The notes under the pieces: model-generated
What the model was told of the DNA's origin: nothing
Database searches by the model: none
Seen by the model: the letters and a program-made list of their open reading frames with translations, nothing else
Translations under genes and position numbers: made by a program
Assembly (NCBI GenBank): GCA_004369045.1
Contig: ML213507.1
Location: forward strand, 320,946 to 374,811
Direction of reading: 5' to 3'
Source of the DNA: Heliocybe sulcata
Taxonomy: Eukaryota; Basidiomycota; Agaricomycetes; Gloeophyllales; Gloeophyllaceae
DNA: 53,866 bases
Shown here: in pieces, positions 28,912-53,737 of the stretch
How the letters are laid out: each line of letters starts with the position of its first letter
Position numbering within the stretch: position 1 is the stretch's first letter

Positions 28912-28929
28912 TTGCCTAATCAGAATCTC

Positions 28930-29419: not shown

Positions 29420-29803
29420 TCTAGATCTCAAGGAGCGAGACTGTCGCATACCAGCGCCTCGCAGCAGGAGAAGGTGGAAGATATTACAATGCCAAAATGA
29501 GTGGACTTTACATCTGTAAGACAGAGTTGATACAAGACGGTGCCATTACATAGATAAGTACTAGTGTTGATAATTATAAACAGGATCCATACTATAGCAT
29601 CCCCCTGCACGATGAATTGGAGCAGATGAATAGGAAGGGAGTGTCTACACTGCACACTCGGATCGGCCGAGTGATGAGAATTATATCGAAACAATGAGCC
29701 CCAGGTAGTTCAAAATCCTACGAGTCCAGTCAGTCTTCTCCATGGCACGCCACCGCAGAAAATCAGTTACACTCACCAAACCGCCACAGGAAGAGCAGGA
29801 ATT

Positions 29804-32800
29804 CTAGGCTCTCGCTACCAAGATAACCACACTCGCCAGCAACCCCGCGTTCATCAACACCACGGCCGCGAGGATCGCTGTCAGACCCATCACCAAGGAT
29901 CCAAGGGTAATCAAGATCAAGGCGTCCGAGTTGCCATTCATAGTCAAGCGGGTGAGGAAGCTCGTTCGCGATTGTTGAACGGCTGCCCCATGGTGAGGCA
30001 AATGCTCCGGGATCTGCAGCGAAGACGATGGAGCGGTGTCCTTACTAAAATCTCCAGTCTGCCGACTACCTTCCAAGACCGTGTTGACCAGTGCCAAGAC
30101 GTCCGCGACGATACGCTCCAGCGTGGCTGGGTCCCGCTCGGGAGACACGGCTGTACGTTCCGAGGAAGGCCCGCGACGTCGTTGAGTCTGACGCTCGTTC
30201 AGCATCTCCGTCTTCGTCGTGTTCTCATGGTCGTCAATTTGGACATGATGACCAAACTTGCCACCCTCCTGATGGTCGCTATGATCGGTGTCGGATTTGG
30301 CCTCAAAGACGATAGTGCTCGACGAAGCAGCGTGGGTAAGAGGCGGTCGCTCGAGATAGTCGAATACAGATAGAGCGGGGGTAACAGTTTCCTTCAGGAT
30401 GGGAGTCGGGAGGCTGACGGCGATGTCCGGAACGGGGATAGGCACGCGAGGCAAGTCAGTGGGAGGCTCCAGAAGTCCTCCAGGCATGGACATGTCTGGT
30501 TGCACTATCACTTGGGGCGCAGAAACCTCTACAATGTGCTGCGCTGGGGATGAAGGTATCCACAAATCCGCAGAAGGACTCAACCCCGCCACCTCAAATA
30601 TCACCTTCAAACTCTGCTTACAGCCCTCCATAACGCCCCTGATCACTTCCTCGTCATACAGCTCACTGTAAAACTCCGCATCCATCTGCAACGTTCCTTC
30701 TGGCGTGACCTGCCCTGTAATCGACAGCGGCTTATGCAAGATTTCCACATCCGCATAGTTGGCAGGATTCTTGATACTGTCGCCATCCTCCTTAAAGAAC
30801 GCATCCTTCGCGAAGACCTGCCACCGCCCAAAGTAGTTAAAACATACGTCGGCATCGGCGCTGCGGAGGTCCGGATCACGCTCTCCAGCATCGGTGAGCC
30901 AGCGGACAGCTTGGTAATCAAGCCCTTCCTGGGCGAAGGAGGAGAGCGATGTCTGGACGTACTCGACCAGCGAAGCGACATCAGTCGGCTTGCCAGATAG
31001 ATCGAAGGTATGCGGACTGCCATTACTCGTGCTGAACCACCCGATGCTGCGAGACACGTCGAGGTCGTCGGCAAATGGCACCCGTCCGTGACTCACGATG
31101 GCAAGGGGGACAGCGATACCACCGAACCGAGTGCGGATGGACATGAGGAGGGCCGCGAGCAGCAAGTCTTGGTCGCTCGTGTTGTAGAACTGATTGCCTC
31201 TGTTCAGCAGGTCTTCAATGCCCTTGCCAACCGTGATTGAGGCCATGCCTACGGCGATTTCGCGGCCTCTTTCAACGACAGCGAGTGACGGCGCCCCAGG
31301 ACGCGTTAATCTCCGCACAAATGCGTCATTGTCGACAAGGAGGCTCTTGGAGTATTCGACGAAAGGCAAGGGGTTGAGTGCAGAAACATACTGCTGCAGA
31401 AGTGTACTCCATTCGTGGAACGACGTCGTTCTCTGGCCAAGCTTCTCTCCTCGGAGCAACTGCTCCAGATCCTCCATAAGGATACGCCAACTGACTAGGT
31501 CAATACAGATGTGGTGCACGGCGATCCAGATGCGCTGCTCCGAAGCGGTCTCAAAGAGTACGGCCTGATAAAGAGGGCCACGGTATATGTCGATCTCACC
31601 CTGAAGCTTCCGCACGTAGGAATCCAGCTCGTCGAATGATGAGACTGTGATGTGCTTGACTGCGACAGAGTGGTCGGCCTCCGGGACGATCGTCTGAACC
31701 CAAGAGCGCCCTTCCTTTCGGTACGTCGCCCTCAGGATATCGTGGTGCCTAACGATTTCCCGGAGAGCTTGTGCAAACGAATTGTATGTGATGCGCTGAA
31801 GCGGCGCCACACAGAAGCTCTGATTCCACCAGCCAACGTCTCTCCAGTTCAAGGAGAAATACCATTTCATGACGGGTGTCAAGGGTGTCCCTTGAGATAT
31901 CTGCATGCTCGCGGGCTTCAACTTGGGAACCACCGAAGGCTGTGGTTTGGCGATACTGCCGGCGCTGAGAGCCGCGATTTGACTCAGAGAGGTCTTGCGG
32001 TCTGCTACTTGACTGGGTTTGACCGTGAAGCCTCGCTTCTTTGCCGCAGCAACGACACGTAAAGCGCTTATACTACGTCGGTATGATAGATCAATAAACA
32101 TCAGCATTCAGAAGGAGCAGTATTTTACCTGTCGCCCCCGAGCTCTTTGAAGGTCGTGTTGCCCATTATAGCACTGACATCCACCTTGAGGACAGAAGCC
32201 CAGATCTCCGCATACATTGCTTGGATGTCGTCTAACGAATGGACAGCTTCCTTTGTCTCCTGCGACGTTTCTCCGAGATTTGATAGAGCGTCCTTATGGA
32301 CCTTGCCCTGGGCTTCGACCGCGCTGCTGGCACTGAGAGTAGCTATCACGCTTAGAGAGGTCTTGCGGTCCGCCACCTGACTGGGCTTGATAGTGAAACC
32401 TCGCTTCTTTGCAGCGGCAACGACACGTAAAGCGCTTATACTACGTCGACAAGATAGTTGAATGAACACCAATATTCAGAAAGAGGTCGACAACTTACCT
32501 GTCGCCTCCGAGCTCCTTGAAGGTCGTATCGCCCTTTATAGCACTGACATCCACCTTGAGGACAGAAGCCCAGATCTCCGCATACATGGCTTGAATGTCG
32601 TCTAATGAATGGACAGCTTTCTTCGTCTCCTGTGGCACCTTTCCGAGATTCAATAGGGCTTCCTTGTCGACCTTGCCATTGCGGTTCATAGGAAAGGCGG
32701 GCACGGCCGTGAGTTTCGAGGGTACCATGTACTCAGGAACATATCTGGCAGCGGTATCTTGCGCGTCGAAGACATCCACAGTTTCGGGAGCGACGAAGGC

Positions 32801-35800
32801 GATGAGGTTTCCGTTCTTCACCAAGGCTACAGCTTGCTGAACATCCTTGTGGCGACGCAGAGCATTCGCGACCTCCAATAGCTCAATCCGGAAGCCCTTC
32901 ACCTTGACCTGATCGTCCATTCTTCCAAAGTGCTCGACGCCACCAAAGTCGGTCCATCGTCCGACGTCGCCAGACCTGAACATGGTCAGCCCAGGAGCAA
33001 ACGGATCTGGCAAGAACTTCTCGGCCGTGAGCTGCGGCATGTTCAGATATCCCCGACCGACGCAGATCCCACTAATGAACACCTCTCCCTTGCACCCGAA
33101 GGGAACGCGCTGCATCGTTTCCGGATCCAGGATATAGCATCGGACGTTCGGGAGTGGTTTACCCATAGTGATCCGTCGGCCCACATGCATCTGGTCCAGG
33201 AAGGATATGATCGTTGTTTCCGAAGGTGCGCACGAGTTGTAGAATCGGACATGAGGGGCCCATGCCTTGATGAGTTGCTCAGGGCACGGTTCGCCTGACA
33301 CGGCGATGCTCTTGACATGAGGTAGGTCTTCTCTGGAGAGCTGCGACAGGACAGTAGGAGTGATGAAGACAGTGTCCACCGTCTGGAGGACGTCAAGCGT
33401 TGGTCCCTCTGCATAGTTGTTAGAGATCGCTTGCTGGGAGAAAGCAGAGCCCGCTTACTACGCATAACAACAGTTGCTCCGTTGAATAGACAAGACTGAA
33501 CTTCCCAAGTGCCCATGTCAAACGAGACAGAGAGGATGCTGGCTCCTCTGCTGCCTGGAGCAGTCCCGAAGGCACGCGGGCTTTGCATCACAACATTTAC
33601 CAAGCTGCGATGCACGCATATCACACCCTTGGGTTTGCCTGCCAAAACGTCAGTCCAGCCCGCAGGTATATCGCCCTGCACACGTACCGGTCGTTCCACT
33701 CGTGAAAATCACGTACGCTGGATCGTCGCGACCCACCGACACTTTACCGGGTTTCACTTGAGGTAAGAGGGAGGCCGACGTCCTGGAAATGGAAACGGCA
33801 CGTGAGGGTAAGGCGGATCCAGGGACTGCCTGCTCTGTCGAGGGATGGCACAATGTGACAGGCGACGTAACCGATGCGAGAATGCTTTCGATCCTTGCAA
33901 CAGGGAAATCTTTATCAATAGGCACGTAGGCAGCACCGGCTTTGAGTATTGCCATGATAGCAATTGCCATATCGATTGACCGAGTGGTAATTAAGGGGAT
34001 CATGTCACCTCGCTTCACCCCCTCCTGTTGAAGTCGGTGAGCAACAGCATCAGCAAGGCGATTCAGCTCTCCATAGCTGATGGTCTCGTCTCCGTGCTCA
34101 ACAGCAACAGCGCGTGGCTGACGGCGGGCATGGGCTTCGAAACCGTGATGGACACATTCGTAGGTAAGCTCCATGGGCTCGCCCACTTCCATCACTCGCA
34201 AGCGCTCAAGGTCAAACGAGCTGACGCGATCCAGGTCCTTCAGGCGCGTGGCCAGAGAGAAGCTGGATTCGGAAATGATCTCAAGCAGATTCACGAACTT
34301 CTCCGCGACACCACGAGCGTGGGGAAGGTCGAACTTGCGCGAATTGAAGGTCATGAGAACGTCGACGGCATCTTCCACGCACATCAAGTTGACGTTGACG
34401 TCGAACTCGGTATTCTCAACGGCTTGAATGACTTGGACGTCGAACGTGGCACCCTCGTCCGATTCCGCTGATGGAAAGTTCTACAATCTCTATCAGTCAA
34501 CTCCTCCAAAATACTGTGACAGGACGTGCTCACCTGGAAGGTCAGAGTGGTAGTAAAGAATGATGCCAGGTCCGAGATACCATTCCATTGCATGATATCC
34601 CTCAACGTTGCATGAGTATGCGGCAGGGATTCGACGTGCTGCTCGTGAAGGTATTGGAGCAAGGATGAAAGTGGTACATTCGGGTCAATCGGAGCTGCCA
34701 CGGGTATCGTGTTGACCAACGTTCCGAGCACCTGGTCCGCATCGTCGATTACAGCGTCACGTCCGGACACTACGGCACCAAAGATGACAGTCTGCTCTTT
34801 CGTGTAGTGGTGCATAGTCAAAGCCCATACTGCCCTCAAGAGAGTCGATAACGTGGTCCCGATGCTTGAGCATAAGCGGTGCAGAGGCCTTATCACACCG
34901 GAAGCCGTATTGCTGACGGATACAGGTGCGAGGCCGCCTTGATAATCAGACAGCAAGGGCTCCGGGAATGGGAATGAGGAGCACTTGTGGCTGCGGAACA
35001 CATCCTGTCGCCAGTAGCCACGCGCCGCTGAGAGGTCGATGGCGTTCAATCGCATCGCGTAGTCCTTGAATGACGGCTTCCTCGGAGTCAGTCGTCTACC
35101 ACCGCATGCCGCTAGAAAATCTTCGAACTCTAGGGCATGAGACCATCCGTCACTAACGGAGTGGTGTTGGGTCCATATGCAGCGCCATCTATCGGTCGAA
35201 CCTATGCGGGCAATGGCCATCCGCGCAAAGCAGGGTGAGCTGGTACTAAAGCCAAGAGAGAGGTCTTCTTGCAAGAAACGCGCCTGACTCTCTTCAACTT
35301 GGTCTTCCAGCCACTGCAGCACCACCGTCGCATCAGATGAACCAGCCGTGGGACGTAGTACGACCTGATATAATCCTTCCGAAGTATTGACAAATATGCT
35401 GCGGAAATTGACGTTGACGTTCACCAGAGCTTTCCAGGCCCGGATGAGGTCCTGTTCGCTGATCTCCCCGGAAAATTCATAGATGGTCTGCGAGACATAC
35501 TGATCCGGAGTGTTCATCAGGCTGAGGAAGAAGGCAGATTGCGCCGCAGTGGCCTTCCATAAGTCTTCGATGTCGGACGACGCGAGACCACCAGCGGAAA
35601 GCTCGACGGAAATCTCTTCAAACGTCTCCTTACTGACAGCACCAGTGACAGCAATCGGCAAGGAAGGCGGCAAAGAAGAACTGGTCAGGATGACTTCCAT
35701 ACGGGTCCTCCATGCTTGTCCGAATCGCGACAAGAGAACTTCGTCATACGAGCCGGGATCGAAGTAAAACTCGATGACCATGCCGCCCTCCTCTTCCAGA

Positions 35801-38800
35801 TATACCGAACAAATGATTCCAAAGTCGATGTTGTCGGCGTCAAGATCTACATCAAGCGACAGGTCGATGTGCTCAAACAACTCCGACCTGAGGTTGGCTG
35901 CCTGGCCGAAATAGTTGAATTCTATGTGCGGTAGGGAGTGTCGCTTGATTGTGGAGGCATCCGCTCGAGACGTGCAATATCGTAGCAATTCAAACGAGAC
36001 GCCCTTGTCCGGTACCGAGCGAAGCTGATCTCGGACAGTCTCCAGTGCGTCTCCAGTAGACGGCGTTGACCGGAGGTCGAAAGTGACAGGGAAGGTAGAG
36101 GTAAACCAACCCACAGTCCTGGATATATCCATGTCCTCGGCAAACACAGAGCGACCATGAGATTCCACGCAGATGCCGAAGGGACCGAGACCAGTGAGTT
36201 CATGGAATGCCAAGGTCAGCGCCGTCAACACGATGTCCTGCGTGTTGCAACCGTAGGCCATGTTTACAGCATTGACGTTTTCGCATACCTGTCTGGACAA
36301 AACAGATTTGACAGTCTTCCGCCTGCCGGTGGATGCGCTGTGCCGAGCGAGGTAAGATATGGGCTGGAATACAATGAATCGCAGACTTACCCTTGCAGCT
36401 TCGCAAAGGCATCTGCATCTGCGTCGTTTGACAGAGCTGTGGACCAAGCGTGTGGCTTGTAAGTTTCGACGAGGCTCAACAAGTGTTTTGTCCATGCCGC
36501 AAAGGATGTAGTCTTCGGTTCCAGTTCCATGTTGAGAAGGACTCGCTCGACATCTTCCATCAAAATATTGAACGAGATGATATCCACGATCAAATGATGG
36601 ACTGCGACAAAGACGTACTGCCGCTCATTGTCCTGGAGACGTAAGTATCAGTGTCTCTATTGACAAAATGGCGGAACAGACATACTTCAATCAATGCGAC
36701 AAGAAGTAATGGTCCCTCCAGAATGTTGAGAGACTTACTCAACTTCAGCACTTCGTCATGCAGATTGCCTTGGACATGCAAGTGCTGAAGCGACACCGTT
36801 CCAACCTCAGGCGTGTCGGGGCGAATCACCTGACTCCATTCATCACCGCTTCGTTGGAATTGAGCCCGCAGTAGATCGTGATGTCCTACAAGACGCCGCA
36901 CGGCGTGCTGGAGATCGTTGAATTCGATTCGGCGCTTCAGTCGACAGAGCTGGCTCTGATTGTAGTGGTGTAATTGTTTCGCGTTGGCCAAGAAGCGAGC
37001 CTGAGCAGGGGCTAGAGGGATGTCTCCTACGACTTGGTCCTGGGAGTGCAAACGCGTTAAGGGCCGGGCTTGGGTCTCGTCCACTGACTCGGCCAGTGCC
37101 GCAACAGAAGGCGACTTGAATATCTGAGAGACGGAGACGTTAATGCCCTCATTACGGGCCTTCGACATGAGCTTGATGGCACTGATACTGTCGCCCCCGA
37201 GAGCAAGGAATGACGTGTGTCGACCGACTTCGTCGATAGATATACCTAGTGTGGCTGCAATTGCGCGCTGAACCGCGAGCTCGGTAGCGGAGACAGGAGA
37301 TTCCGTGGACTGAGGCGCCTCGATGCGTCTTAGGCGTTCGCGATCTATTTTCCCGATACTCGTCGTTGGGAACTCGGGTAAACAGATAATCTCCGATGGT
37401 ATCTCGTATGACGGCAGAGAGGCCATGCAAGCACGGCGCACAGCCTCAACGTCAACCGTCTTTGAGGAGACGAACCCGACCAGAATATCTCCGTGGGCCG
37501 TCCCGCGAATCATAGCAAACGCATCGTCGACACCCGCGACGGCTCTCATGACCGAGGAAACCTCTTCCAGCTCGATTCGGTACCCTTTCAGTTTCACCTA
37601 CGCTGCATGAGGACATCGAACTGCACTGAGCGACATTACACGCACCTGGGTATCGTCCCTGCCACAGAATTGCAACTCGCCATGCGGCAGCCAGCGCACC
37701 AAGTCCCCAGCTCGGTACATCGTTTCCCTAGGGTTACCGGACGACATAAACGGATCCTGAACGAATTTGGCGATCGTGAGATCAGACCTTCCATAATAAC
37801 CTCCAGCAGCGACGCCCACTCCACCAATGAAGAGCTCTCCTACAACGCCCATGGGGACAGGTCGCCGAGTGTCGCCGTTCAGGACGTACATGCTCATGTT
37901 TGGGAAAGGCCGGCCGAGCGTGATGGGCATATCACCTGAGTACGGATTGAGATTACATGACGTGCTGATGCAGCATTCCGTTGGACCGTAGTCTGAGTAC
38001 AAAGCCACCTTCGTGCCCCATTTGTCGACCAGAGACCGGGGAAGAGCCTCTCCGCAGGTGAAAACACATTTAAGATTAGGATAGTCCTGAGGGTCCAGCT
38101 GTTGCATACCACTGGGCGTGAGGCTGAGGACGTCCAGCTTCTTGATTGTGGAGAATGCGTCGTCCTCACGTATCACTACGGTTGCCCCAGAGAATAGTCC
38201 TCCAAAAACCTCCTGCAGAGTTCCATCGAAACTCATGGCGAGCATCTGCCCAATGTGAGCGCCTGGATGCAAATGCTTCATCGCCGGGTGGAACCAGATG
38301 TTGTTTACAGCACCAGAGTGGTGACATGCGATCGGCTTCGGCTTGCCTGTCGTACCGGATGAAAATATGATATATGACAGGTCTTCCCCGTGCGCGACGT
38401 CTTTGGGCAGATGCGATTCTCTTGAAGGGGTAGATCCGATGAAGGCATACGAGACGTTCCCTAAAAGATGCCCATGCGCACCATGTATGGCCTCCGTGGT
38501 CAGAATATGCGTGATATACGCAGCAGATATCATGTAGCGGAGACGCTCCTCCGGGAACGATATGTCCAACGGGACGAATGCAGCTCCAGCTTTCAAGACC
38601 GCCAGCATCCCTACCACAAACTCGATGCTTCGATCCACCAAAAGTCCGACGAACTTCCCTGGTATTTTCCCGAGAGTCTTCTGCAACTGGCAAGCTAAAC
38701 GGTTCGTCCAATTGTCCAGTTCCCGATACGTGATCTTTCGACCGTAATGCTCCAGAGCCACATAGTCCGGATATTTGGACGCCGCAGCAACGAACCCACG

Positions 38801-41800
38801 ATGCATCGTCTGGAACGGCGTGGCAGCCGTACCGCCATACCCGAATTCTTTGAATTGCCGCATCTGATCTACGGACAGCGGAACGTCGTCGACGACCATA
38901 CCGTCACTCGACGGTTCGACCATGACGCTGAGCAGGTGCTCCAGTTCATCGACTATGTCTTTCGTAGCAGTCTCGTCGAGGACGTTGGGGTCATGGATAA
39001 ATTCGAGTTGTAGCCCGTCTTCGTGCGGAGTGAAGGTCAAGTCTGCTCCGTATTCGGTAACGTCTCCTACCCAGCACTGGTCCTCCAAGATGAACCCATC
39101 AGCCTTTGAATGGTCCTTCGCCTCCGCAGTGCCGAATGTTACCAGAGTATGGAAGAGGGATGCCTGGCCATCTTGACGAGCCCACTTTCGAATGTTAACC
39201 AGGCCCGCATGACAATGGTCCAAGCCTCCCATGTATGCGGACTGCAGACTGACCAAAAGATCACGAATCGTCATGCCCCGCACAAAACGAACCCGAACGG
39301 GGACGGTTGCAAGAAGCAAGCCGACCATCTTGTCGACATCCGGGACTGGAATGCTTCGCCCAGCTTGTACGTTCCCAAAAATAACGTCATCGCGATTGAG
39401 ATAAAGCTTCAGCACCAGCGCCCAGGCGGCGTTCACCAGAGTCGCTTGCGTGATACCGAACCGAACGCAGGCCGCTCGCATGGACTCGGGAGAGATGCGT
39501 ATGAGCCGATGGATGGTATTACCTTCTCCAGACGTCGCAGATGCAGGAAGAGACAGACTGTCCGAGGGCATAGCACCCTCTAAGTACTTCGTCCAGTACG
39601 CTTCCGCGTCTACCTTAGACATGCTCTGGATATAGTCGGTGAAGACTCTATACGCAGGGGCGGGACTGGCCGGTATAGTATAACAGAATGCTCGAAGATC
39701 TGATTTAAGAATGCCTGCCGACCAACCGTCATAGATGGAATGGTGCATGGTGAGGATGATGTAGCTTGCAGCGCCGTTGGGCCCCTTGATGATCGCAAGA
39801 CGAGACATGGGCTGACCAAGCTGGAACCCGAGCTTGAGATCCTGATCAATAAACTGACGGCATTCGGCTTCATTTTTCTGACCCAATACCAAGGGAGTCC
39901 GTTGCTCAGCGTCATCTATCACCACCTTGTGGAGAGAAGTCTCAGCACAGGCCAATCGCTGGCGCAAAGATACAACAGAAACTCACTTGGAAGACGCCAT
40001 CACGCGTCGTGACAAACCTAGTCCGGAGACTGGAGTGGTGATTCAAGAGCCGCTTCCAAGAGAGGCAGACTCTGCTAATGTCAACCGGTCGATCGGATCG
40101 TATTCTCCACATACATGCAGTGGTGTACTTCGACCTGTCCTGCATAAGAGCGACAATCAGACCCGTCTGGAGTTGATTTGCCGGGAAGATGTCTTGGATA
40201 GCATCCTCCGCGATATCAGCTGCTCGAAGTTCCGCCATCACGGATGCGACTGTGCTGTATGACACCGAGGGGGGCGATCGGGCTTTCGGCTTGGAAACAG
40301 CGGGTACCACTGGCATTGCTACTGCTGGGCCACCGAGAAAGCTCTCCAGTTTCCGGATCGTCTGCAACTTGAAGACCTGCGATGGAGAAACCTTGCAACC
40401 AGCAGCCGTAAGGGCGGCTGAGACCCTGACAGCTGTGACACTGTCGCCGTTGGGCAACTGGAAGAACGACGTGTCCATTCCGATCCCAGACACATCGATG
40501 CCGAGGACCTCAGCCCAGACCTTGGCAATCAGCTTCGACAATATCGACGACGGAGCGCTTAAATGACTCGGTGCTGCTTCGACCAGCAGCTTCTCGAGTT
40601 CCTTTCTGTCCACCTTTCCGTTGCGCGTCATAGGAAGATCGCTCTGTGCGACGGCTTTGAAGACGTCCGGGACCATATAGTGCGGGAGCACGTCGGCACA
40701 GGAGTCTCGCACTTCCTCGATGTTAACAGTCTCAGGAGCGAGGAAGGCAACAATCCTGTCGTCCTTGACGAAAACCGCAGTGAACTTGACGTCCGGATGT
40801 TGCGAGATGACATACGAGATTTCGTCTAGGTTGAGACGACGACCCTTGACCTTGATGTCGTCGTGGAGATCCTTGCGACAGATGTAATAAAGGCGCCCGT
40901 CCTCGGTCCATCTACACATGTCGCCAGATGTGTAAAGCCTCCCGCCTTCATTATACGGGTCAGCTATATACTTCTTCGCGGTCAACTCTGGTTTGTTGAG
41001 ATACCCAATCCCAACTCCAGGACCACCAACCCAGAGCTCGCCCTTCATGCCGATAGGTACTCGCTGCATGTTCTCGTCAAGAACACGGCAAATAGTATTG
41101 GCAATCGGCCTGCCAACCGTGATCTCTTGATTCCTTTGCAAAGCAATGGATGTGGTATGGACGGTGCACTCGCTCGGACCGTATATGTTAATGAAAGTTG
41201 GCACGACATCAAGCCAAGCCTTGAGCAACGCGGTCGGTACGGGTTCACCAGCAACTGTGATACGCTTGAGTTTCGGGAACGGCCGGGGCTTCACTCTCTG
41301 AAGACCGGTGGGAGTGATCTGGAGATAATCCAGGGTATCGATGGTGACGGCCCAGTCGACGTTATCATCGCGCAAGACAAGCGTGGCGCCGAACATAAGA
41401 GTTGAGAATATCTCCCCAACGCAGCAGTCAAATGCAAGGCCCATAAAGTTACCGACACGGTCACCAGGGGACGATAGCCAGCTGCCCGCAGGATCATGAA
41501 GCGCGTTCACCAGCGGCTGGTGTCGACATACGCTGACCTTTGGCGTACCGGTCGTCCCGGATGTCCCGATCGCAAACGCAGGATCCGACGCCTCGATAAC
41601 AGGCAATCCATCGCCCGCTCCACAACCATCGTGCTCTGTAACAATGAACACGTGCTTCAGGTCATCCTTGAACGTCTCTGGAGGCTCGTGGAGAGCCTGC
41701 TGTGATGTGACCACCATGACATCCGCTCGGCAGTCGCGTATGAGGGTTCGTATCCTTGCGCTTGGCGTGTCTTCGTCAATCGGGAGGTACGCTGCACCTG

Positions 41801-43621
41801 CACGGAGGACGGCCATGATGCCAACCACCATCTCAAGCTCTCTGTGAACAAGAACTGGAATGAGGGAGCCCTTGCCGACCCCGAGAGCTACCAGCTGATG
41901 CGCTACGGCAGCGCTCTGCGTCTGTAGTTCGCCATAGGTAAGAACGCGACTGCCCTCCTCGACTGCTACGGCCAGAGGGTCTCGCTCAACCTGAGCAAGG
42001 AACCCTTCAACGACACTGGTGTATGGCACCGGGCGTGCCTCCCCTTCTTCGAACGGCAGGACGCGCAACACTTCCTGAGCGATCTGAGCCTTCACAAAGT
42101 CCTGCACGGTAGTCTGCTCCGCAATATTCTCCTCGGCAGCACTGATTAGCCTCTGCAAAACACCAGAGAGATGCCGTTGTGCAGTCAAAGCCAACTCATG
42201 TGGCACGACGTTCGAATCATGGGACATAAGACAATAGAGGACGCCGCTTTCGTTATTGAATTCGGCGGATAACTCGAACTCGACTGGTGCGGTAGCAATC
42301 AAGAATTCTGTGTCGTAATCCCCGACACGAGCGTTCTTCGGAGCGAAGTTCAGAGTGATAAAGCTCTGGAATAATTTCGCCTGCTTGACATCGAGCCATT
42401 GCGACAGCTCTCCAAGCGAGACCTGCACATACGGGAGAATGTCGAAGTAAGACTCTTGTAAGGTATCAGCCAGTTCCTTCAACGTCTGGGTGGGCTTGAT
42501 GTCAGATCGGACGGGAACGGTCGAGATCGTTGGGCCCATGATGCTACGATCTTAATCAGCATGTAAGCTTCCATGTAATAGACTCAGACGTACTGATCCA
42601 CGTCGGCGAGAGGGATGTCTCTGCCGCTATATACTTCACCGAAAATGTGACCATGATCGAAGGTAGTCAGGACTAAGGTAAGAGCCCACACCATACGGAT
42701 TAATGTTGGCGCCGTGATACCAAGAGCGCGAGCAGCCTTTTGACAGTCTATCACATTTCCGACTGGAAACGGTGGAAGATGCCGCATACGCCTTCCAGAC
42801 GCAGCTGCATCTGAAGTCTTCTCGAACGGCGCGTTGGCCAGATATTCGGTCCAAAATTTCTTCTTTTCTTCACGGTCTTGCATAGAAGAGATGTGTGCTT
42901 CATACCTAGAGAATGAAGGGCGGCTGATGGCGATGCTGGAAAGCGCAGAGATGAAATCTTCGATGAGCATCTGCACCGAAGCTGCGTCGAACAAAGCGTG
43001 ATGCATGGTCACAATGAAACGCGATCCGTTGTGGGTTGGAAGTGGCGCAAGACCCGCCGTCACTACCGTCTGTTTCGTTCCCTGGTACAACCAATCAGCA
43101 CGTGATCAGCACGTCGACTAGATGCACAGTACCTTCGCAAGAATATTAATAGCTTTAACCTCGTTTTTGAAATATTCTTCTTGCTTCCTTTCAATGATCT
43201 CCAGGTCGGCGTCGTCCCAGCTGAGATGCTGAAGGGAGGTCCGGCTGGGATGCAATGAATCCAACTCGACACGATAGATACCATGCGCGTTAGCGATAAA
43301 CTGGCTACGCAGGATGGCATTGCCTGCGACGACGGTTTTCCAAGCGGTTTGCGCTGCTTCTGCTTCGATAACAGCATTAATGGACCATGCCACCGAGCCG
43401 ACATAGGCATGGGCATGCAAGGCAGTTACACTAAGCATGTCGGCTTGCATCGGGGTAACAGCCGATATGTATGCAACAGCCTCGCCGGGTTCGACATAGA
43501 CTTCGTTTACGATCTGAGCCGCAATGTCGGCTGGAAGGCGCGGCGCATCGATACCGGAAGCTACTTGCGCATTATCCTCGAGCGAGCCAGCGCTCTCAAT
43601 TGGAAGTTGTCTGCGGGACAT
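29804..43621 (-). CDS. Three-module nonribosomal peptide synthetase with C-terminal membrane anchor
   Basis: Assembles a short peptide on carrier domains. Eleven introns (48-61 bp) give 4,409 residues. The start 43619-43621 (MSRRQLPIES) follows a 5' UTR intron. Order and approximate residues: C1 45-470 (HHALFDA), A1 505-975 (SGTTGTPK, NGKVD), T1 995-1070 (NGDSV), C2 1107-1530 (HHSIYDGWS), A2 1550-2027 (SGTTGKPK, GKID), T2 2041-2110 (GGDSI), E1 2131-2549 (HHLIVD, ESHGR, FNYFG), C3 2580-3017 (HHSVSDGWS), A3 3031-3497 (TSGTTGKPKG, NGKVD), tandem T3a/T3b 3514-3680 (both GGDSI), E2 3715-4145 (HHICID, SHGR lacking the Glu, FNYFG). After a Pro/Ser-rich linker come 35 hydrophobic residues at the extreme C-terminus. 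No thioesterase, reductase or terminal C domain is present. It is divergent from an aminotransferase gene. The peptide product is not predictable with confidence. Confidence 0.93.
29807..29925 (-). other. Predicted membrane hairpin at the NRPS C-terminus
   Basis: The last 40 residues contain LILITLGSLVMGLTAILA and, after MNAG, LLASVVILVA, ending ARA and stop. This is long enough for two short helices or one long helix. It follows directly, in the same exon as E2, a hydrophilic linker rich in Pro, Ser and Asp/His. It suggests tail-anchoring to a membrane with the enzyme in the cytosol. Confidence 0.7.
31960..32680 (-). repeat. Intragenic tandem duplication of the third carrier domain, period 368 bp
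   Basis: The segments 31960-32312 and 32328-32680 are homologous, each running from just after the A10 lysine region (NGKVDKEALLNLG versus QGKVHKDALSNLG) through a full carrier domain. In both copies an intron (32441-32498, 58 bp; 32073-32131, 59 bp) splits the phosphopantetheine-attachment Ser codon as AG|T within LGGDSISAL. The near-identity of the coding parts points to a recent duplication. Confidence 0.88.
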
Positions 43622-45047
43622 GTCTGAGAACTGAAGTGTATTGGGAACGACGAAGTACTCACTTCGGAAGGGTAGACATAGTTTAGAGTGACTTGTAGGT
43701 CCGTACTGATTGTATTTTATTGGCACTTGTCGACAAGACGAATCCAAGGGTTGTCGGGTGAACGCCTGAGAGAGTGCTGAGCTGATTAATTGACCGACAA
43801 AGAGCTCCGTGGAGCAGGTCTTATACGGACTCATGCCCCGACCTCCATACTGACGCGAAAATTCAAGTGGATTGAGTGCCCATCTGCGCCTCCCGGCCTC
43901 GAATGATCAGGAACCATCATTGCTGTGGGATGCATTACTCCGGGAGGACGCACCGAGAGAGACCGAGAGTATGCCTTTAGGACGTACGGCGGAATGGCCG
44001 CATCAGCCTGATCCTATGCATTAATCACGCTAAGTCTCAGAGAGTCAGCGTGCCGCGTCAAATGCGCACGGAGGAAGTTACTCTTCCCAGTCAATTCTAT
44101 GACTTGATGCATCATGTGAATAGATTTACCCAAGATTTACCTGTGAAACTGCATGTCGCCTCTAGCGCCTTGCGGAATCAGACCCTGGCCCGGCATTACC
44201 ACAGAAGGCACAGGAGTTCATATCTACCGAGAGCAACGGGACTAGGCACTCTCGGGCGTAAAAATCTGAAACGGAGTCAAGACAAAAGGTAAATCCGGAG
44301 GCGGCAGTATCCTGGGAGCAAGAGAGACTCGATGGGATGAGCATGATATTTGTATGTATTTGTGGCGCAGAATGTAGGTCCAAGAAATCATCAAACGGGT
44401 ATTTAATCAACCAGCACGAAGTCAGTTTCCCTTGTTACCAACCAACCAGTCAACCATCCGCTGTCTAAAGTACGCAACAGGGCCGAAACATGTTGATTAT
44501 ATGGAGCTTCCTTGACTGGCTGTGACGGCCTCGAGAAAGTTATGTCGCCACTCCGATCTACTCTTGCGTGAACTATGTCAATTCCCATCAGTCCAGGACG
44601 CCAACGAACGTATATTTGTGCGTGCTCACTAACCCCATGGACATAGCGTAACATCTAGGCACATCCCGGCATCCGTGTCTATGGACAACGGTTAACGAAG
44701 TGCGAATATCGTTCTGGATCGCGTGTAAATTCTACAGGCAGTCTCCCTGCGAGTGGATCTCCGAATCGAACCTGAACGGGTACATCTAGCGGTTCAGGCA
44801 CAGGCCTGATTGATTGGTATTGTATGAAACGGCCATATGCACAGCGGGCGGCTTGTACAGGTCATCAAATTCACAGCCGTGTCTGTCCTGTAATCCCGGA
44901 CATCGGAAACAAGAACTCGCCTTCATACGAGCGCAAAGGAGCCGCACTTGGTATTTATCACCGGTCTTGGATCATTCTGGGCAAGACGACGCCTGACCTT
45001 CGAAACAATACCCAAAAGTCTTGACTTCCTATTGAGCTTCGTTCACT
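43622..45047. promoter_or_regulatory. Divergent promoter region of the NRPS and aminotransferase genes
   Basis: A 1.4-kb spacer separates two outward-facing cluster genes, so it should hold both promoters. On the NRPS side a 5' UTR intron is visible (donor GTGAGTACTTCG near 43660, acceptor TTCTCAG at 43624). No coding frame in the spacer is convincing. I did not recognise a specific regulator site. Confidence 0.5.
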
Positions 45048-46642
45048 ATGTCCCCAGTCGCCGAGTCTACCGTAGCGACCGTCGATTCCAAGGAGTCCAA
45101 CAGTACCGCAAAGGCTTCCCCAGCAGTCCAGGACGCTTCAGCAGGCAATATGACCTCTGTGCCGTTTGTCTTGTCTTCCGTGGAGTCAAATGCACGCACC
45201 TACGCTCGTAAGTTCCCCGGCACATTTGCGAAGGGCAATGGCCTGTGGATATACGACGTGGAAGGTATGTCTTTTAGGCTCAGGCATAGTCTGCAGGTCT
45301 AACATACCAGTGCCACATGCAGGGAGCAAATATTTCGACCTACTTCAGTGTGCAGGTGCACTTCCCTTGGGCCATAACCATCCCATCGTTCGTCAAGCTA
45401 TCCTTGACTACGTGGACTCCCAGTTGCCACAGCAATGCCTTGACCTTGCAACAACCGCCAAGACGGCTTTCGTCCAAGAATTGTGGCGTTGGATCCCAGC
45501 ACCTCTCTCCTCTACGGGCAAGATTCAATTCACCTCACCCTCCGGTTCAGACGCTGTCGAAGCGGCCATGAAGCTTGTCCGTATCGCGACTGGCAGGTCG
45601 ACGATTATCGCCTTCGATGGCGGCTACCACGGGCACACCTCCGGCTCCCTCGCCGCCATGGGAAACACCGAGACAAAGTCCCAACTCAAGACAGGGTCTC
45701 TGGCTGATGTCGTGTTCTTCCCTTACCCGCATCCCGACAAATCTCCCTTCGGCCCCACCGTCACCGACAGCAATGTCACAGCCGAGCTGTGCGCCGCCTT
45801 GCTCGAGACAAAGCTGGCCGATCCGGAGAGTGGCATGACCAAACCTGCCGGTATCATCGTCGAGTGCATTCAAGGCGAGGGAGGCGTTGTGCCCGCACCC
45901 AGGGAGTGGCTGAAGCGGCTCCGCCGCATGGCTACGGAGCACGACATCCCGCTCATTTTTGATGAAGTCCAGAGCGGCTTTGCGAGGACCGGCACGCCCT
46001 TCGCGTTTGAATATGCCGGAGTAACGCCCGATGTGATCGTCATGTCCAAAGCTGGTGAGCCTGCCGGTTGTCCAAATTTATCTCCCACTCAATCGGGCTA
46101 TAATTAGTCGGCGGTAGCATGCCGTTAGCGTGCATCGTATACGATGAGAAACTGGATAAATGGCAGCCTGGCAGCCACGCGGGAACGTTCAGAGGCAATC
46201 AGCTCGCGCTTGTCACGGGGGCTCGAGTCCTTGCGCACATGCGTGAAACAAGAATGTGGGAGCATGCTGCGCAAATGGGCGCGCTGTTCCGATCACACCT
46301 GGTTCAACATGCCGCGCAGTTCGGGATCAAGCAACATATTCATTCGATTCGGGGAAGAGTAAGTTCGGACTTGTGGCAGTGAATAGTAACCAGTATTGAT
46401 GCGGCTACGCCTAGGGACTCATGCTAGGTATACAGTTGACGCTGCCAGGTTCCACAATTGAGGATGGCGCCCTGGCAAAACGAGTACAGGGCATCATGTT
46501 TGAGAGGTACAAGGTTATTATTGAACGCGGGGGACGGCATGGCTCGGTCTTGCGTGTCCTGCCGCCTTTGACTATATCCTCCGAAGAAATTGAGGAAGCT
46601 GCTGAGCTTTTGGCGAAGGGTATCGCAGATGCCGTCTACTAG
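45048..46642 (+). CDS. Class III aminotransferase, 2,4-diaminobutyrate aminotransferase type
   Basis: PLP enzyme that in bacteria interconverts aspartate 4-semialdehyde plus glutamate with L-2,4-diaminobutyrate plus 2-oxoglutarate (EC 2.6.1.76). Exons 45048-45264, 45323-46054, 46108-46358 and 46415-46642 give 475 residues, in frame. Family landmarks are ESNARTYARKFP, CAGALPLGHNHP, SGSDAVEAAMKLVRIATGR, FDGGYHGHT, VECIQGEGGVVPA, DEVQSGFARTG, the PLP lysine in MSKAVGGSMPLA (codons joined across an intron), SHAGTFRGNQ, RGRGLMLGIQ, and ERGGRHGSVLRVLPPL. These fit DABA aminotransferase much better than ornithine or GABA enzymes. The first 45 residues are a Ser/Ala-rich extension without an obvious targeting signal. 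Divergent from the NRPS, it probably supplies Dab as a building block. A bacterial-like enzyme with fungal introns hints at old horizontal transfer. Confidence 0.85.
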
Positions 46643-47831
46643 TTTATTATCTTGTAATTGTGATGGGGTCTTGAATGCATATCGTAGTCCCATGACCATA
46701 TAATGATTGTGCACGCTGTTGGGATCGTAGTAAACAGCGAGTGCCTATTACTAGCGTCTTGTCATCCAAGATTTAATGCTGGCACGCCGCAACTATACAC
46801 AGACGCAGGTTATCGTACTCACCCCGTACCGCCCGGGCCGAATCGAGTATACGCAGTGAGTGTTGTGTACAGCCATGATTGCCGTTCGACGCCACCATCA
46901 TTAATGCCAGCATATCATTCTCTTCATTAACATTCTTCCCTATTTCCTGCGACGCTCATCTCCGACGGAAGAGCAGCATGGCTCGGTGCAAGTCATTCTC
47001 AGAATGCTCCATTTGGATGTCTCGAGTCCACGATGCCCGAGCACAGGCGGCCAGGTACGAGGGGCAAGAAATCCGGCATTTGATCTCACAAAAATGATCC
47101 ATCAATCTTCAGTTTGTCATATGGAAAGGAATGGTGCCCAGTTTCAAACAAAAGATACCACGGAGATGTAGTAAGCTCTGAAGCGATGAATACGGAGCAC
47201 GCTGGAGGATTGACAGACTTGCGAGAATGAATGTGATCCGGAAGCAAATCGCTGATGTGCCTTACCCACACAGTCAAGCGCCCATGGCACTGAGCAGTTT
47301 CATTTCTAAACCAATGCATGCACAGGTACTTTATCCTGGAACACTCCTCGTTTGACGGTCTCGGAGGATGGAACTAGGCGGAAGTCGCAATCAGCAGACT
47401 TCCAACTATTTGGCTACTCTCGTATGGAATCGTTTCTGCTCATGGGAGTTGTCTGAAACTAGGCCTCGGATCTACAGTGACAACTCAATTTGGGCCCAAT
47501 GGCGATACATTTGACGTGAGTTCATCAAACAGTCAATCAGGCCGGCGCATCAACGTTCAACAGTCGGATTGAAGGCTTCATGGGACTGTTTTGTTATTAC
47601 GCGCAGATACCTCCGCAGCCCAGGAACGGGCGATCAGGGCCGCCATCGGTCACATTGGTATTGCACAACTTGTCGCCATCTCCGAGCATGAGAAGCGATG
47701 GTGATCTAGACCGGCCAGCAGTATGTTGTACAGCTTCAGAAAAAGCGTTCTGAGCGGAGTCTGTGCAGAATATCAAAACCTAGCAGAGTCTTGACTCGCT
47801 GGGAAATGAACCTTTGTCCCCTGCAATAGCC
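46643..47831. other. Intergenic between aminotransferase and ABC transporter
   Basis: No gene is recognised in these 1.2 kb. Short frames on both strands lack domains. It should contain the 3' UTR of the aminotransferase and the promoter of the ABC gene, which points the same way. Confidence 0.45.
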
Positions 47832-50800
47832 ATGGACGTTCCCACCATGACTGCCGATGCGTCGAGCTTGGACAAGGACGATTCCGAGAAGGAGAAGGCC
47901 TCTACACCAAGCGTCGATACTCAACCAGAACGTGTCCAGACGAGCAAAACAGTCAATCCGAATCTCTTCTCGTTCTTTACACTGGAATGGCTGACGCCGC
48001 TGGTATGGTACGAGTGACCTCCCCAAAATATCAGCAACGTACTAACTCGTTATTCGCAGGCAAGGAGCTCGTCGCCAATTGTTTGAGGAAGATTTGTACC
48101 TGCTACGCAAGTCCATGCTCTCCTCCTACATCAAGAAGGAGATTCTGGATCCATACGAGAAGCGCATCCTTGACTGGCAACGATCCAACGATGCCAATGC
48201 GAAGCCTCCCTCTCTTCTGCGTGCCATGGTGCGACCGTATTGGTCCCAGTGGTAAGACTCTCCGTCCTGCATGGAAGTAGTGGTAATAACAACTGTGCCA
48301 GGATATTTGCAGCGATACTTTATGGATGTGGAGTAGCTTGCGGTCTGGCTCTGCCGATCTTTGTTCAGCAGACGGTTCTGTACCTGAGCAACGAGAGCCC
48401 GCCGATCAGCTCATTCGTAACACCCAACCTGCGTATCCACTCGGGCGTTGCACTCGCCTTCATCCTCTTTGGGTTCCAGGTAATGTTTATCTTGGACTGA
48501 CTGAAGACGTTCTGACACTCGACCGGTTCTTGATATCATCAGGCATCAAAGAGTATCTTCATCCAAAGCTCAACGTCGATCATGCGGGAGCTGCAGCTCA
48601 ATATGCAGTCCGCAGTGATTATCGGCGCCTACCAGAAGTCGTTCCGGTTAGACAACCAGGAAGCGGCAAACCATCCTGTAGGCAACGTAATGAACGTCAT
48701 CAATGTGGACAGTGAGCGTATCGGAATCGCTATCGAGAATAGTAAGCGATTCAAGCCGCATAGTATTCAGCATAAAGCTGACCCAGTATCGTCTATAGTA
48801 CAGCAATTCTGGGGCCTGATAGTTCAGCTTGCGGTCTCGATTGTCCTTCTCTCTGGATACCTCGGTCGCGCTATCTGGGCCGGAATCGGAAGTATGATCG
48901 TCATTATTTTCGTTCAGGCGGTCATCGCACCATTCGTATACAACCTCACTGGTACAGAAATGGAAGTCGTCGACAAGCGCCTGGACCTGACAAGGGAGAT
49001 GCTGCAAGGTTTGTAGCGTTAACCCTGGCCACCGCGTCTGATGTCTGATTGGACATTTACAGGCATCAAGATAATCAAACTGAGAGCACTAGAGCCCTAC
49101 GTTCTCTCACTGATATCTTCCGTCCGGTCAAGGCAGTTGAAATATGTCCGCTTTGAGAACTTCTTCTCTATCGGATTGTTTTCTGCGTCGCAGTGCTCTG
49201 CTGTGCTCTTGCCGCTATTCACTTTTATCGTGTACTCGAGTCTACACGGTGGGTTAGAGGCCGCAGTTGTATTCCCGGCTCTGACCTTGTTCTCGCAATT
49301 GCTGGAGCCCTTGAACTTCTTGCCGCAACTGGTCTCGTAAGTTTTCTTATCTGTACGTATGTCTTTTCTGACGGTCCTGTCACGCCACAGGTCTTTTATA
49401 CAAGCTAAAGTATCTTGGGATCGTACTTGCCAGCTCTTCCAAGCTCGGGAAGCAGCCAACCCGGTATCGGAAAAGTCGTCTACCAGCGCGTCGACTGATC
49501 CCATATCTGCTATCGAAATCGTGAATGCAAGCATGAGATGGCCCAAGATCAAGGCCGAGGAAGAGTCGTCCGAGGAAGACCCTGGATTCTTCGATCTCCT
49601 GTTGAAAAGCAGGAGGAAGTCGAAATCGGACACGGAATCGATTGACGTTAACGAGCCCGTGCTGAAGGATATCTCTCTGCAAGTACCCGTCGGCAGTTTC
49701 GCGGTCGCTTTGGGAGGTGTCGGCTCTGGGAAGACTTCGCTGTTATCCGCCATCGCTGGACAACTGGAGCGTGTGTCGGGATCGGTGTGCAACAGTTTCC
49801 TTTCTCTGCGTGGTCTCAGAATCTGATATTCTCTTCAGGTATCCCACCGAGGAACGATTGCGTACTTGACACAGAAGCCATGGCTGCTCTCCCAAACGCT
49901 CGAGGCAAATATTCTGTTCGGCTTGCCTATGGACCACGACCGTTTTGCTACTGTCTTGAATATTTGCGAATTGACGGACGACCTTGCTCAACTTCCGCGT
50001 GGGGTTAAGTCGCAAGTCGCTGAAGGTGCTGCGAATCTGAGCGGAGGGCAACAAGCGCGGATCGCGCTCGCCCGGGCTCTGTACAGTAACTCAGGTCCGT
50101 CGGGTCGTCTTTCAGTTGTTGTGCTTGAGCTTAAACGAGAGCAGATATATACTTACTTGACGACGTATTCTCCGCCCTTGACGCTCGCGTCTCTGGCAAA
50201 GTGTTCAAGGCGACTATCGAGTACCTGAGGGGCAAAACTATTCTACTAGTCACCCACGACGTGAAACTGGCGGACCGAGCCGATCAAGTATTCGTCGTAT
50301 CAAAAGGGTCGATAATCGAGAATGGACGTCCGAAAGAGATTTTGGCATCGCTAAGCCAGACGAAGCTGCACGAAGTAGTGGGCGTCGAACATGGTGTCCA
50401 CCGGGACGAGCAGTCCAACGAGGACAATTTAGCTGTATCGGACGCCGATAGCGAAAACGACGAAGATGAAATCGCCGTCACAGAAAGCAGACGGAAGGGT
50501 CATGTTTCCTGGCCAACATACCTCAGGTACATCAAGGCTTCCGGTGGATTCGCTACCGTCGTCGTGCTGCTTGTTATACTCGTGGTCCAGCAGGCTGCAG
50601 TTGGTACGTTCCATCTGAACATCGTTATGGGTCTAGTTGACTTATTGGAGACGCAGTTATATCTAACCTGTGGCTGTATTGGTGGGATGACAATTCGTTC
50701 CACATCTCCAACCAGAAGTACCTTCTCGCATATGGCCTCATTGGCGTTGCTGTTTGTATCTTCTTGAGTGAGTACACCTGACGTGGTCTCTTGTTCGGAC

Positions 50801-52414
50801 TCTCATTCTCTTCAGCACTTGGCAACATGTCCGTCGTGACTGCGACGTACAAGGCATGCATTGTCTACCATCGGTTAGCTCTGGACAGAGTAGCCCACGC
50901 TCCTCTCCATTTTTTCGAGACCAATCCTGTTGGCCGTATCATGAATCGGTTTAGCAGGGATGTCAACGGCGTGGATCACGAGCTATACGTCTGGGTCTTC
51001 AATGTTGTCACCGGAGTTTTCATTATTGCTGGGCTCGTGATCGTCATGTGCTGGCCAAGCCCTTACCTCGCAATCACCATCCCGGTGCTGGGTTTGATAT
51101 ACTACGTCATCTACGCATTCTACAGAGGGTGAGTGTGCCGTCAATTCTTAGGTGTCTGCTTACCTAGTTGTCTCCCAGCGCTAATATTGAGCTCAAGCGC
51201 TTGACCTCCAAGAGCAGGTCCCCGCTATACGCTTATGTCTCCGAAACATTAGAAGGCGCAATAGTCCTAAAGTCGTTCAATCGAGTGGACTCGGCGTATG
51301 AAACCGCTCTGTCGTTACTGGACTTCTCCAATCGACCCTTCTATATCTCCCGCTCAGCAGAGCTTTGGCTGCTTTTGCGCATCGAACTCTTCGCATCCCT
51401 GGTCACGTTGGCGATGGTCTTGATCGGGTCAGCCACGACGGCTTCAGGACCGTTGATCGGGTTAGCCCTGAGCTCAGCCTTCGCGTTGACGAATGAGATC
51501 AATGCCCTTATTCGGAGTACCGCAGAGGTCGAGAGCAATATGAACTCCGTAGAGAGGCTAGACGATTACTGCTACGACCTGCCGCCCGAGGGGTCATCAA
51601 TAACGGAATCGAAAGATGTCCCTCCTTCCTGGCCATTGACCGGGACCATTTCGATCAAAAGCATGACGGTGAGATACCCCTCCCGCCCGGACGTCGCCGC
51701 TTTGAAGGATGTCAGTCTGGATATCCACAACGGCGAAAAAATCGGAGTGGTCGGTCGGACTGGCAGCGGGAAGTCGACTTTGCTGTCCGCCTTATTGCGC
51801 CTTGTCGAGTACGATGGAACAGTGGAAATCGACGGCTTAGGTAGGCTCTTCTCCATGACTCCAGTGTATCGCTAACAAGATACACCCCAGATATCCGCGG
51901 ATTGCCTTTGGAAAAATTACGTCGCAGCATCGCCTGTGTATCGCAAGACTCTGGACTCTTCAGCGGGACGCTCCGATCCAACCTCGACCCACTTGGGCAA
52001 GCTACGGATGCCTCGCTCCTGTCCATGCTAGTCCTCGTTGGTCTCGGATCCTTCGATCTGAATATGGAGCTGACGGCAGGCGGAAAGAATCTGTCACAAG
52101 GCCATCGGCAGCTTGTGATTGTCGCTGCCGCACTCCTGGGGGATCCCAAGGTCGTTATCCTTGACGAGGCGACTGCGAGCTTGGATAACGCAACAAGCGC
52201 CAGCATCACGAAGTTGGTCAGCGAGAACCTGACCAGAGCGACGGTCCTTACTATCGCTCATCGACTGGATACCGTCATGAACTGCGACCGGATCGTCGTG
52301 CTCGATAAAGGGAAGATTGTAGAAGTGGGCTCTCCTAACGAACTTCTGTCTAGACAGGGTGGTCTCTTTGCGGAGATGGCGAGAGCTGCTGAGGAACAGC
52401 ACGGAGATCTGTAG
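47832..52414 (+). CDS. ABCC (MRP)-type full ABC transporter
   Basis: ATP-driven exporter, about 1,350 residues, many small introns. The start ATG (47832) precedes a hydrophilic N-terminus and NLFSFFTLEWLTPLVW, with no TMD0. Order: TMD1 (for example FWGLIVQLAVSIVLLSGYLG); NBD1 with Walker A GGVGSGKTSLL, signature NLSGGQQARIALARALY and Walker B IYLLDDVFSALDARV; acidic linker; TMD2 with HFFETNPVGRIMNRFSRDV and LVIVMCWPSPYLAI; NBD2 with Walker A GRTGSGKSTLL, signature LSQGHRQL, Walker B VVILDEATASLD and the His-loop TIAHRLDTV. The unequal NBDs (Asp after Walker B in NBD1, Glu in NBD2) are typical of MRPs. Placed next to the Dab aminotransferase and NRPS, it most likely exports the peptide or protects the producer. 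Exact exon edges around 49810-50180 and 50760-50810 are approximate. Confidence 0.9.
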
Positions 52415-52851: not shown

Positions 52852-53508
52852 TCAGGGGCTCGTAGGCTGGTCCAATACGATTTCCATCTCGTTGATCTGG
52901 TTATTGTCTGATGTCGAACCGAAGACGTCTGCTCCAGCCGCCAAGGACTCGATCAACAGCCCTAAACGTGAACTTGTCATGTTAGGCTCCTAGAGGAAGA
53001 ATATATCAATGGATTGTCAACAGCGTTTGCGAAACGACTTTACCTTGCGTGTTACATCCAGGTCATCCTTGAAGCCGTCAGCGATAGACGACATCCAGAA
53101 TTTTCTGAACTTCTCCTTCAGAGCTTGCTCGTCAACTGATTCTTGCCCAGAGACGCCACTGGTAGGAGGGAAAGGAGGTATCGTTGCCGCAGGTGGTGAG
53201 GCAGACGGCGACCTCCGTCGCGAGCGTGCTTCCTGGCTAGTATTTTTATCATCGCGCACATTCTCCTTTACTCGTGGAAGATCTGCCTCAGAATCCGAAG
53301 CAGAGTCTGAATCAGAACTCGAAGAGGATTCATCCGACTCGTCCAGTTCAGGTTCTCCTTGTGCGATCACTGGTTGGACTTTCGGGGCGACCCGAGGACT
53401 AGTCGACTCGTCTGACGACGACTCGGAAGAGGATTCGGAGGAGGATGCTGCACGCCGTTTCCGTTTCCTGTTCCGTTTCCTCTGTTGGACTGGTTTCGCG
53501 GGAGGCAT
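52852..53508 (-). CDS. RSA3: Ribosome assembly protein 3 (RSA3-like)
   Basis: Nucleolar factor for 60S ribosomal subunit assembly. Exons 53044-53508 and 52852-52989 (intron 54 bp) give 200 residues. The N-terminal part is a basic cluster (KRNRKRKRR) followed by long Ser/Glu/Asp tracts, typical of nucleolar proteins. The C-terminal Rsa3 domain reads KEKFRKFWMSSIADGF, DDLDVTRKEPNM across the intron, then LGLLIESLAAGADVF. The family's conserved pattern (F-R-x-F-W/Y then D-D-L then L-L-I-x-x-L) is present. A housekeeping gene here marks the right border of the biosynthetic cluster. Confidence 0.8.
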
Positions 53509-53737
53509 TCGTTCGAGCTTGCAATTGGAAGATTGAAAGAACCTACAAGCAACGTGAACCTGAATTCTTTTGCGCCTGTGACGGTTCGGGAACTGTACCG
53601 GCTAACGTACGCCCGATGGGCAAGTCTCGGGCCGGGTGGCTGACGGATTACCAACGCTTTCAATTCATTCCTTAATCATGCTCATGTTAGAGCTCCTTTC
53701 TTTCTTGAATATATTATCCTACGAACCCCTGAATGGG

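Follow-up and report, generated by a model that had tools for sequence, protein, structure and literature searches.

A nonribosomal peptide synthetase, a DABA-family aminotransferase and an ABCC-type exporter side by side in Heliocybe sulcata

Three genes at one locus

In a stretch of 53,866 nucleotides (the window) on contig ML213507.1 of the basidiomycete Heliocybe sulcata (assembly GCA_004369045.1), three intact intron-bearing genes occupy positions 29804-52414: a nonribosomal peptide synthetase (NRPS) gene on the minus strand and, on the plus strand, genes for an aminotransferase of the 2,4-diaminobutyrate (DABA; Dab as a peptide residue) family and for an ABCC-type exporter. The original prediction, made from the letters of this DNA, was that such a gene set encodes an undescribed fungal pathway which makes and exports a short, partly D-configured peptide containing Dab. 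The gene set proved to be real, with intact models and with the NRPS and aminotransferase genes diverging from a region of about 1.2 kb, and we read it, at about even odds, as a small fungal cluster in which DABA supply would feed the NRPS and the product would then be exported. The gene models were obtained with a splice-aware script and subsequently corrected by eye, and the locus runs from the stop codon of the NRPS gene (29804) to that of the ABC gene (52414).

The NRPS model contains 11 GT-AG introns of 48-61 nucleotides each and no in-frame stop, and its start codon is uncertain, being either that at 43834 or a later in-frame ATG. In the spliced protein, Pfam recognizes five Condensation, three AMP-binding, four PP-binding and two AMP-binding_C stretches, with an E value of 2.2e-209 for Condensation; a chance match is not an issue for the NRPS call. 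No other Pfam family matches at E 0.001, which includes thioesterase, reductase and methyltransferase families. Condensation (C), adenylation (A) and carrier (T) domains are thus repeated along the chain, and serines of the GGDS type are present in all four T domains. With three modules and, behind the second of them, an epimerization (E) domain in which the catalytic His and Glu are conserved, the protein answers to the short-peptide NRPS that had been proposed. It also holds eight of the nine Condensation matches found in the host genome; the sole match found outside it lies on host contig C14 (540111-540701).

The exporter gene, too, is intact and full-length, and it is of the ABCC type, as had been claimed. 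The best of 190 NCBIfam matches of the full protein is the MRP model TIGR00957 (646.7 bits, below its equivalog cut-off of 1470), and the Walker and signature motifs of two nucleotide-binding domains (NBDs) are readable. TMD0 is probably absent, because the gene model begins near the first membrane domain. When the host genome was searched with 394 residues encoded at the end of this gene, 42 matches were obtained. About 62 kb to the left of the window (host contig C5, 259063-259352), two exon-sized pieces that match the ABCC gene (79% over 57 residues and 54% over 41) represent either a close paralogue or a remnant on the same contig.

An aminotransferase of the DABA family

The DABA-type aminotransferase of the original prediction is upheld by several lines of evidence. 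The protein passes the cut-off of TIGR00709, the model of the DABA aminotransferase family, with 453.3 against 401.6 bits (residues 42-474 on profile positions 7-437 of 442), and its best relatives of solved structure are DABA transaminases. Class-III aminotransferase matches occur on host contigs C1, C2, C4, C5, C13 and C18, and the gene at the locus is the only DABA-like one found in the host genome, since a single exon of it reaches 272 bits with TIGR00709 and the next-best place beyond the gene 81. On these figures, an ordinary housekeeping aminotransferase was rejected as an explanation. In a tree of 38 rows, the fungal protein groups with 32 bacterial DABA-type rows, two of which are identical, and not with five ArgD-like rows; the split is supported at 100/100, and the program warns of long branches meeting at the fungal protein. 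This protein sits on a long branch and the tree gave it no firm place within the DABA clade, so that the tree speaks neither for nor against a transfer from bacteria. Judged by sequence, the enzyme is a member of the DABA aminotransferase family, and DABA formation is its predicted function.

Class-III aminotransferases have folds in common and drift in their substrates, and as many as 69 NCBIfam models match the protein at E 0.001 or better, so the DABA name might mislead and the enzyme might act on another omega-amino acid, such as ornithine, lysine, gamma-aminobutyrate or beta-alanine. We consider this unlikely, as the five DABA-named models, at 517 to 373 bits, rank ahead of every other family, the first of which has 308. 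Sequence identities point in the same direction: the best 40 of 1,975 matching plasmid records, all of them below 60% identity, are 44.0-50.1% identical over 86-95% of its length, whereas 80 of 198 loci from a prokaryote genome scan, which was seeded with peptides specific to the fungal sequence, reach 27-34% and are taken as ArgD-like. Matches at E 1e-70 or better were furthermore found in 70 of 398 genomes (the phylum of a Mariprofundus), the best-scoring one with 49% identity over residues 44-474.

The closest plasmid relative, with 50.1% identity over 87% of the aminotransferase length, is that of Burkholderia arboris. The 31-kb stretch around it contains a trimodular NRPS with a thioesterase at its end, its frame being cut by the stretch edge, together with a polyketide synthase (PKS) piece with a luciferase-like monooxygenase, a TauD dioxygenase and another thioesterase. 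Our reading of this gene content is that the stretch is of the occidiofungin type; in the plasmid table no gene is annotated there. In the occidiofungin cluster, ocfL is described as encoding a DABA transaminase, OcfL, which presumably forms DABA for the peptide (PMC10100970).

Other uses of DABA have to be considered alongside peptides. The EctB model TIGR02407 gives the aminotransferase 373.3 bits and its equivalog cut-off of 552.2 is not reached. Ectoine synthesis was rejected, given that ectoine synthase (PF06339) has no match in the host genome, where an intron-split gene could escape the search; the same search gave matches in seven of nine bacterial genomes that had been selected by an EctB-like match, whereas 14 standard controls gave none. 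Some relatives have open reading frames (ORFs) of 965-1001 residues, which hints at fusions with a role in other DABA routes, the second domain being possibly a decarboxylase of the diaminopropane route. At five bacterial loci (L140, L142, L143, L145 and L146) the DABA aminotransferase lies inside open frames of 965-999 residues, and at two more (L127 and L153) it carries about 450 extra N-terminal residues in an 884-residue frame.

Domains of the synthetase and surroundings of the locus

The NRPS chain opens with C1, and no module is found upstream of it in the 1.2 kb that reach to the aminotransferase gene. C2 and C3 both read HHxxxDG. All three A domains retain the Asp and the Lys expected of amino-acid-activating A domains; the pocket codes (Table 1) were read by eye at positions set by motif.

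Two further domains of the condensation fold, E1 and E2, are of the epimerization type. For both, solved structures of epimerization domains come first among the structural relatives (TycA, GrsA, PvdL and bacitracin synthetase), and both are E-type by contrast as well, because TIGR01720 matches them and gives no match in C1, C2 or C3 when the spliced domains are compared. E1 has both motifs of an active epimerase, HHxxxD and ExHGR, its ESHGR aligning with that of TycA (2xhg). In E2, only the first motif is complete, and the Glu position of ExHGR, where PvdL has its Glu in the alignment, is taken by a Val. This Glu is the catalytic residue, and a TycA chain with Ala at the same position is among the solved structures (9bfg beside 9bfd). 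We infer from the motif that E2 is catalytically inactive as an epimerase. A second D residue via E2 is unlikely because the Glu is missing, and one D residue rather than two would be expected in the product. The partly D-configured peptide of the original prediction is narrowed to one likely D residue, that of E1 after module 2 with its His and Glu.

Ahead of E2 lie the twin carrier domains T3a and T3b, spaced 104 residues apart, equal to the length of one exon. At the DNA level, the repeat consists of blocks of 183 and 162 nucleotides at offsets of 370 and 368 nucleotides and with identities of 88% and 82%, respectively, and the introns of the two copies look alike; the pair is a fairly recent tandem duplication which carried the intron along. 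Twin T domains before a terminal domain of the condensation fold are also the layout of beauvericin synthetase, in which one of the two T domains suffices, the chain moves back and forth between T1 and T2a/T2b, and ring closure is the work of C3 (PMC5457498). By analogy, the Heliocybe NRPS could work iteratively, as beauvericin and bassianolide synthetases do, and release an oligomer rather than a tripeptide. A leading C1 without a donor module, the twin T and the terminal condensation-fold domain are common to both layouts. Nonetheless, the terminal domain is of the E type, matching E domains first, and not a condensing domain, a methyltransferase domain is absent, and there are three modules instead of two; moreover, the T duplication, which took its intron along and shows 82-88% DNA identity, looks recent and so may be neutral. 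An iterative mode thus appears improbable to us.

The chain ends in a coding tail beyond E2. Its mean in-frame codon score is 0.133, compared with -0.144 (standard deviation 0.039) for shuffled letters, and in-frame scores are alike in all NRPS domains including the tail, those of the other domains being 0.09-0.26. No second copy of the tail was found in the host genome, and a read-through artefact was rejected on account of the coding-like codon score and the single copy. A 231-codon open frame on the plus strand opposite the tail (window 29678-30373) is taken as a shadow of the coding strand. Hydropathy peaks in the tail at 2.59 (19-residue window), against 1.97 for the best window elsewhere in the NRPS, and by this computation the tail is likely to be a membrane anchor. 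Biosynthetic enzymes located in the cytosol usually have no transmembrane domains, and cyclosporin synthetase has been reported at the vacuolar membrane, both according to a review (PMC10816013). Among the open-access literature matches, no title concerns a membrane-anchored fungal NRPS.

The HHxxxDA motif in C1, the Val in E2 and the recent tandem duplication of T could alternatively be signs of a decaying NRPS, that is, of an assembly line losing its function. This strikes us as very improbable for a frame of 4,482 codons with canonical splice sites throughout and with codon scores that are alike in every domain up to and including the tail.

To the right of the ABC gene lies an RSA3-like exon, whose Rsa3 match covers 28 of 46 positions (E 7.6e-5) and scores 22.6 bits, below the Pfam cut-off of 27. 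The right-hand neighbor is likely to be an RSA3-like gene, and the RSA3 boundary of the original prediction is retained in this form, an RSA3-like exon in the expected place with a score that keeps it from being firm. Among 52 ORFs listed for the left flank, 18 were scanned with Pfam; three gave matches, namely to leucine-rich repeats, Plavaka transposase and DUF6532, and no further biosynthesis gene was recognized among the 18. The Plavaka piece (PF18759, E 3.5e-97) lies at window 21471-22463 on the minus strand. The gene models of the locus have dense short introns, and together with the nearby Plavaka transposase and DUF6532 these presumably point to basidiomycetes. Just left of the NRPS, in window 26001-30000, GC content falls to 0.47 and 0.45, compared with 0.50-0.56 elsewhere in the window. 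Rfam and tRNA scans gave no matches.

Table 1. Coordinates of the genes, domains and neighboring features in the window, in order of position.
Feature	Position	Strand	Remarks
NRPS gene	29804..43834	-	12 exons, 4,482 residues; order C1-A1-T1-C2-A2-T2-E1-C3-A3-T3a-T3b-E2-tail; gene model and Pfam
NRPS C-terminal tail, coding	29807..30595	-	263 residues; last ~40 residues hydrophobic (29807-29926), likely membrane anchor
E2, terminal E-type domain	30596..31891	-	HHICID retained; VSHGR versus ExHGR of active E domains
Twin carrier domains T3a, T3b	31956..32677	-	tandem duplication of ~370 bp including intron; GGDS serine in both
C3-A3	32627..35571	-	HHSVSDG; pocket code DMWFASSIIK by eye
E1, epimerization domain	35599..37039	-	HHLIVD, ESHGR; His and Glu retained; Gly after HHxxxD is Ile
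C2-A2-T2	37091..40202	-	HHSIYDG; pocket code DGQSFCDISK by eye
A1-T1	40344..42020	-	pocket code DCGQTAIVHK by eye; T motif PNGDS
C1, N-terminal condensation domain	42066..43501	-	HHxxxDA instead of HHxxxDG; motif and Pfam
Divergent intergenic region, NRPS/aminotransferase	43835..45047	.	~1.2 kb
DABA--2-oxoglutarate aminotransferase family gene	45048..46642	+	4 exons, 475 residues
ABCC (MRP-type) exporter gene	47832..52414	+	13 exons, 1,312 residues, two NBDs
RSA3-like ribosome-assembly exon	53017..53601	-	right neighbor, boundary, outside the pathway; Pfam

A possible pathway and its relation to known systems

If the three genes act together, the aminotransferase would transfer the amino group of glutamate to aspartate-4-semialdehyde, its presumed substrate, giving L-2,4-diaminobutyrate. 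The trimodular NRPS would then join three amino acids, one of which would probably be Dab, and E1, by its motifs, would turn residue 2 to the D form. E2 would not epimerize and might instead serve as a non-catalytic gate or release domain acting on T3a/T3b. The C-terminal tail would tie the NRPS to a membrane near the ABCC pump, and the pump, to judge by its adjacency, would export the product.

A number of observations weigh against this pathway, starting with the fact that adjacency alone is no proof of a shared one. The cut-offs of narrower DABA models are not reached by the aminotransferase (NF005393, 517.1 of 671 bits; NF005386, 450.6 of 753; NF006733, 396.7 of 438). For E1 and E2, the TIGR01720 scores of 57.7 and 43.6 bits are both below the cut-off of 74.2 and the Gly after HHxxxD is gone in both domains, and for these two reasons the activity of E1 is uncertain. 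The bacterial code for Dab is DVGEISSIDK, and none of the codes of A1, A2 and A3 resembles it; a further acidic pocket residue is present only in A2 (D322), and this is one residue. As the host is a fungus, this mismatch would be weak evidence against Dab, and it is not decisive because substrate predictors are limited for fungal A domains, as discussed in PMC13126170.

The surroundings of the bacterial relatives are likewise divided. An NRPS-like ORF is found near other top relatives in four of 12 stretches, none longer than 20 kb and all from nine genomes, and the Mycetohabitans and Pantoea plasmid stretches have no NRPS in their gene tables. Some bacterial relatives do have an NRPS beside them, B. 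arboris among them, and often there is none; the link of bacterial DABA transaminases to NRPSs is real and far from general. In the host genome, Pyridoxal_deC matches, which may be glutamate decarboxylase or similar enzymes, are present above the cut-off on contigs C3 and C33 and weakly on C36; given these decarboxylases, a route from DABA to diaminopropane may exist.

All three points, the few NRPS neighbors, the decarboxylase matches and the A codes that do not look Dab-like by eye, favor an alternative in which the DABA formed by the aminotransferase serves some other purpose, such as 1,3-diaminopropane and polyamine synthesis or its own turnover, and ordinary amino acids are the substrates of the NRPS. 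We regard this alternative as possible and as the less probable of the two, for the one gene of the DABA type that the genome was found to have forms a divergent pair, about 1.2 kb apart, with the very gene that carries eight of the nine Condensation matches, and ectoine synthase has no match there. A cluster running from DABA supply through the NRPS to export hence remains our preferred reading. Improbable, by comparison, is a more specific version of it, in which the tail-anchored NRPS would share a membrane with the ABCC pump and build the Dab peptide on its twin carriers, the Glu-less E2 releasing it or handing it over to export.

If the preferred reading is true, peptides with Dab, familiar as a class from antibiotics of bacteria, would become accessible by a fungal route. 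It would also raise a question of chain release, since the line ends in an E-type domain without Glu, followed by a hydrophobic segment, and has no known release domain. The lack of a known release domain, the Glu-less terminal E, the twin carriers and the hydrophobic tail are the most unusual features of the locus, and they go beyond what the original prediction had described. To our knowledge, a dedicated supply of Dab has not been described for any NRPS of a basidiomycete. The claim that the cluster is undescribed is consistent with the open-access literature, where, among the matches listed, no title concerns a fungal cluster with a DABA transaminase, an NRPS and an ABCC exporter; the passages on DABA in PMC9854754 concern bacterial enzymes only.

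According to a fungal survey, NRPSs are far less common among basidiomycetes than among filamentous ascomycetes (PMC2823734). The hydroxamate siderophore synthetases CsNPS2 and Cpf1 are, like the Heliocybe protein, basidiomycete NRPSs, and their domain order differs from that described here. In basidiomycete siderophore clusters, the NRPS is paired with an ornithine N-monooxygenase (PMC12617850); unlike in those clusters, none was recognized among the window ORFs scanned. ACV synthetase resembles the Heliocybe NRPS as a fungal synthetase of tripeptide size with an E domain in its last module, whereas the Heliocybe NRPS has no thioesterase (E 0.001), a leading C, a last E without Glu and an extra E after module 2. 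With beauvericin and bassianolide synthetases, it has in common the leading C1, the twin T domains and the terminal domain of the condensation fold, and it differs from them in the E-type nature of that domain, which lacks the Glu, in the lack of a methyltransferase, in its three A domains and in the hydrophobic tail. Cyclosporin synthetase is similar in being an NRPS reported at a membrane; it is described as attached to the vacuole membrane together with alanine racemase (PMC10816013), while in the Heliocybe NRPS the chain itself has a hydrophobic C-terminus. In the occidiofungin (ocf) clusters of Burkholderia, finally, a DABA transaminase, OcfL, stands beside NRPS genes as the presumed supplier of DABA, much as is proposed here. 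Those clusters are bacterial and comprise several NRPS and PKS genes, a thioesterase and tailoring enzymes, and at the level of the NRPS the likeness is far smaller (28.6% over 1,755 residues).

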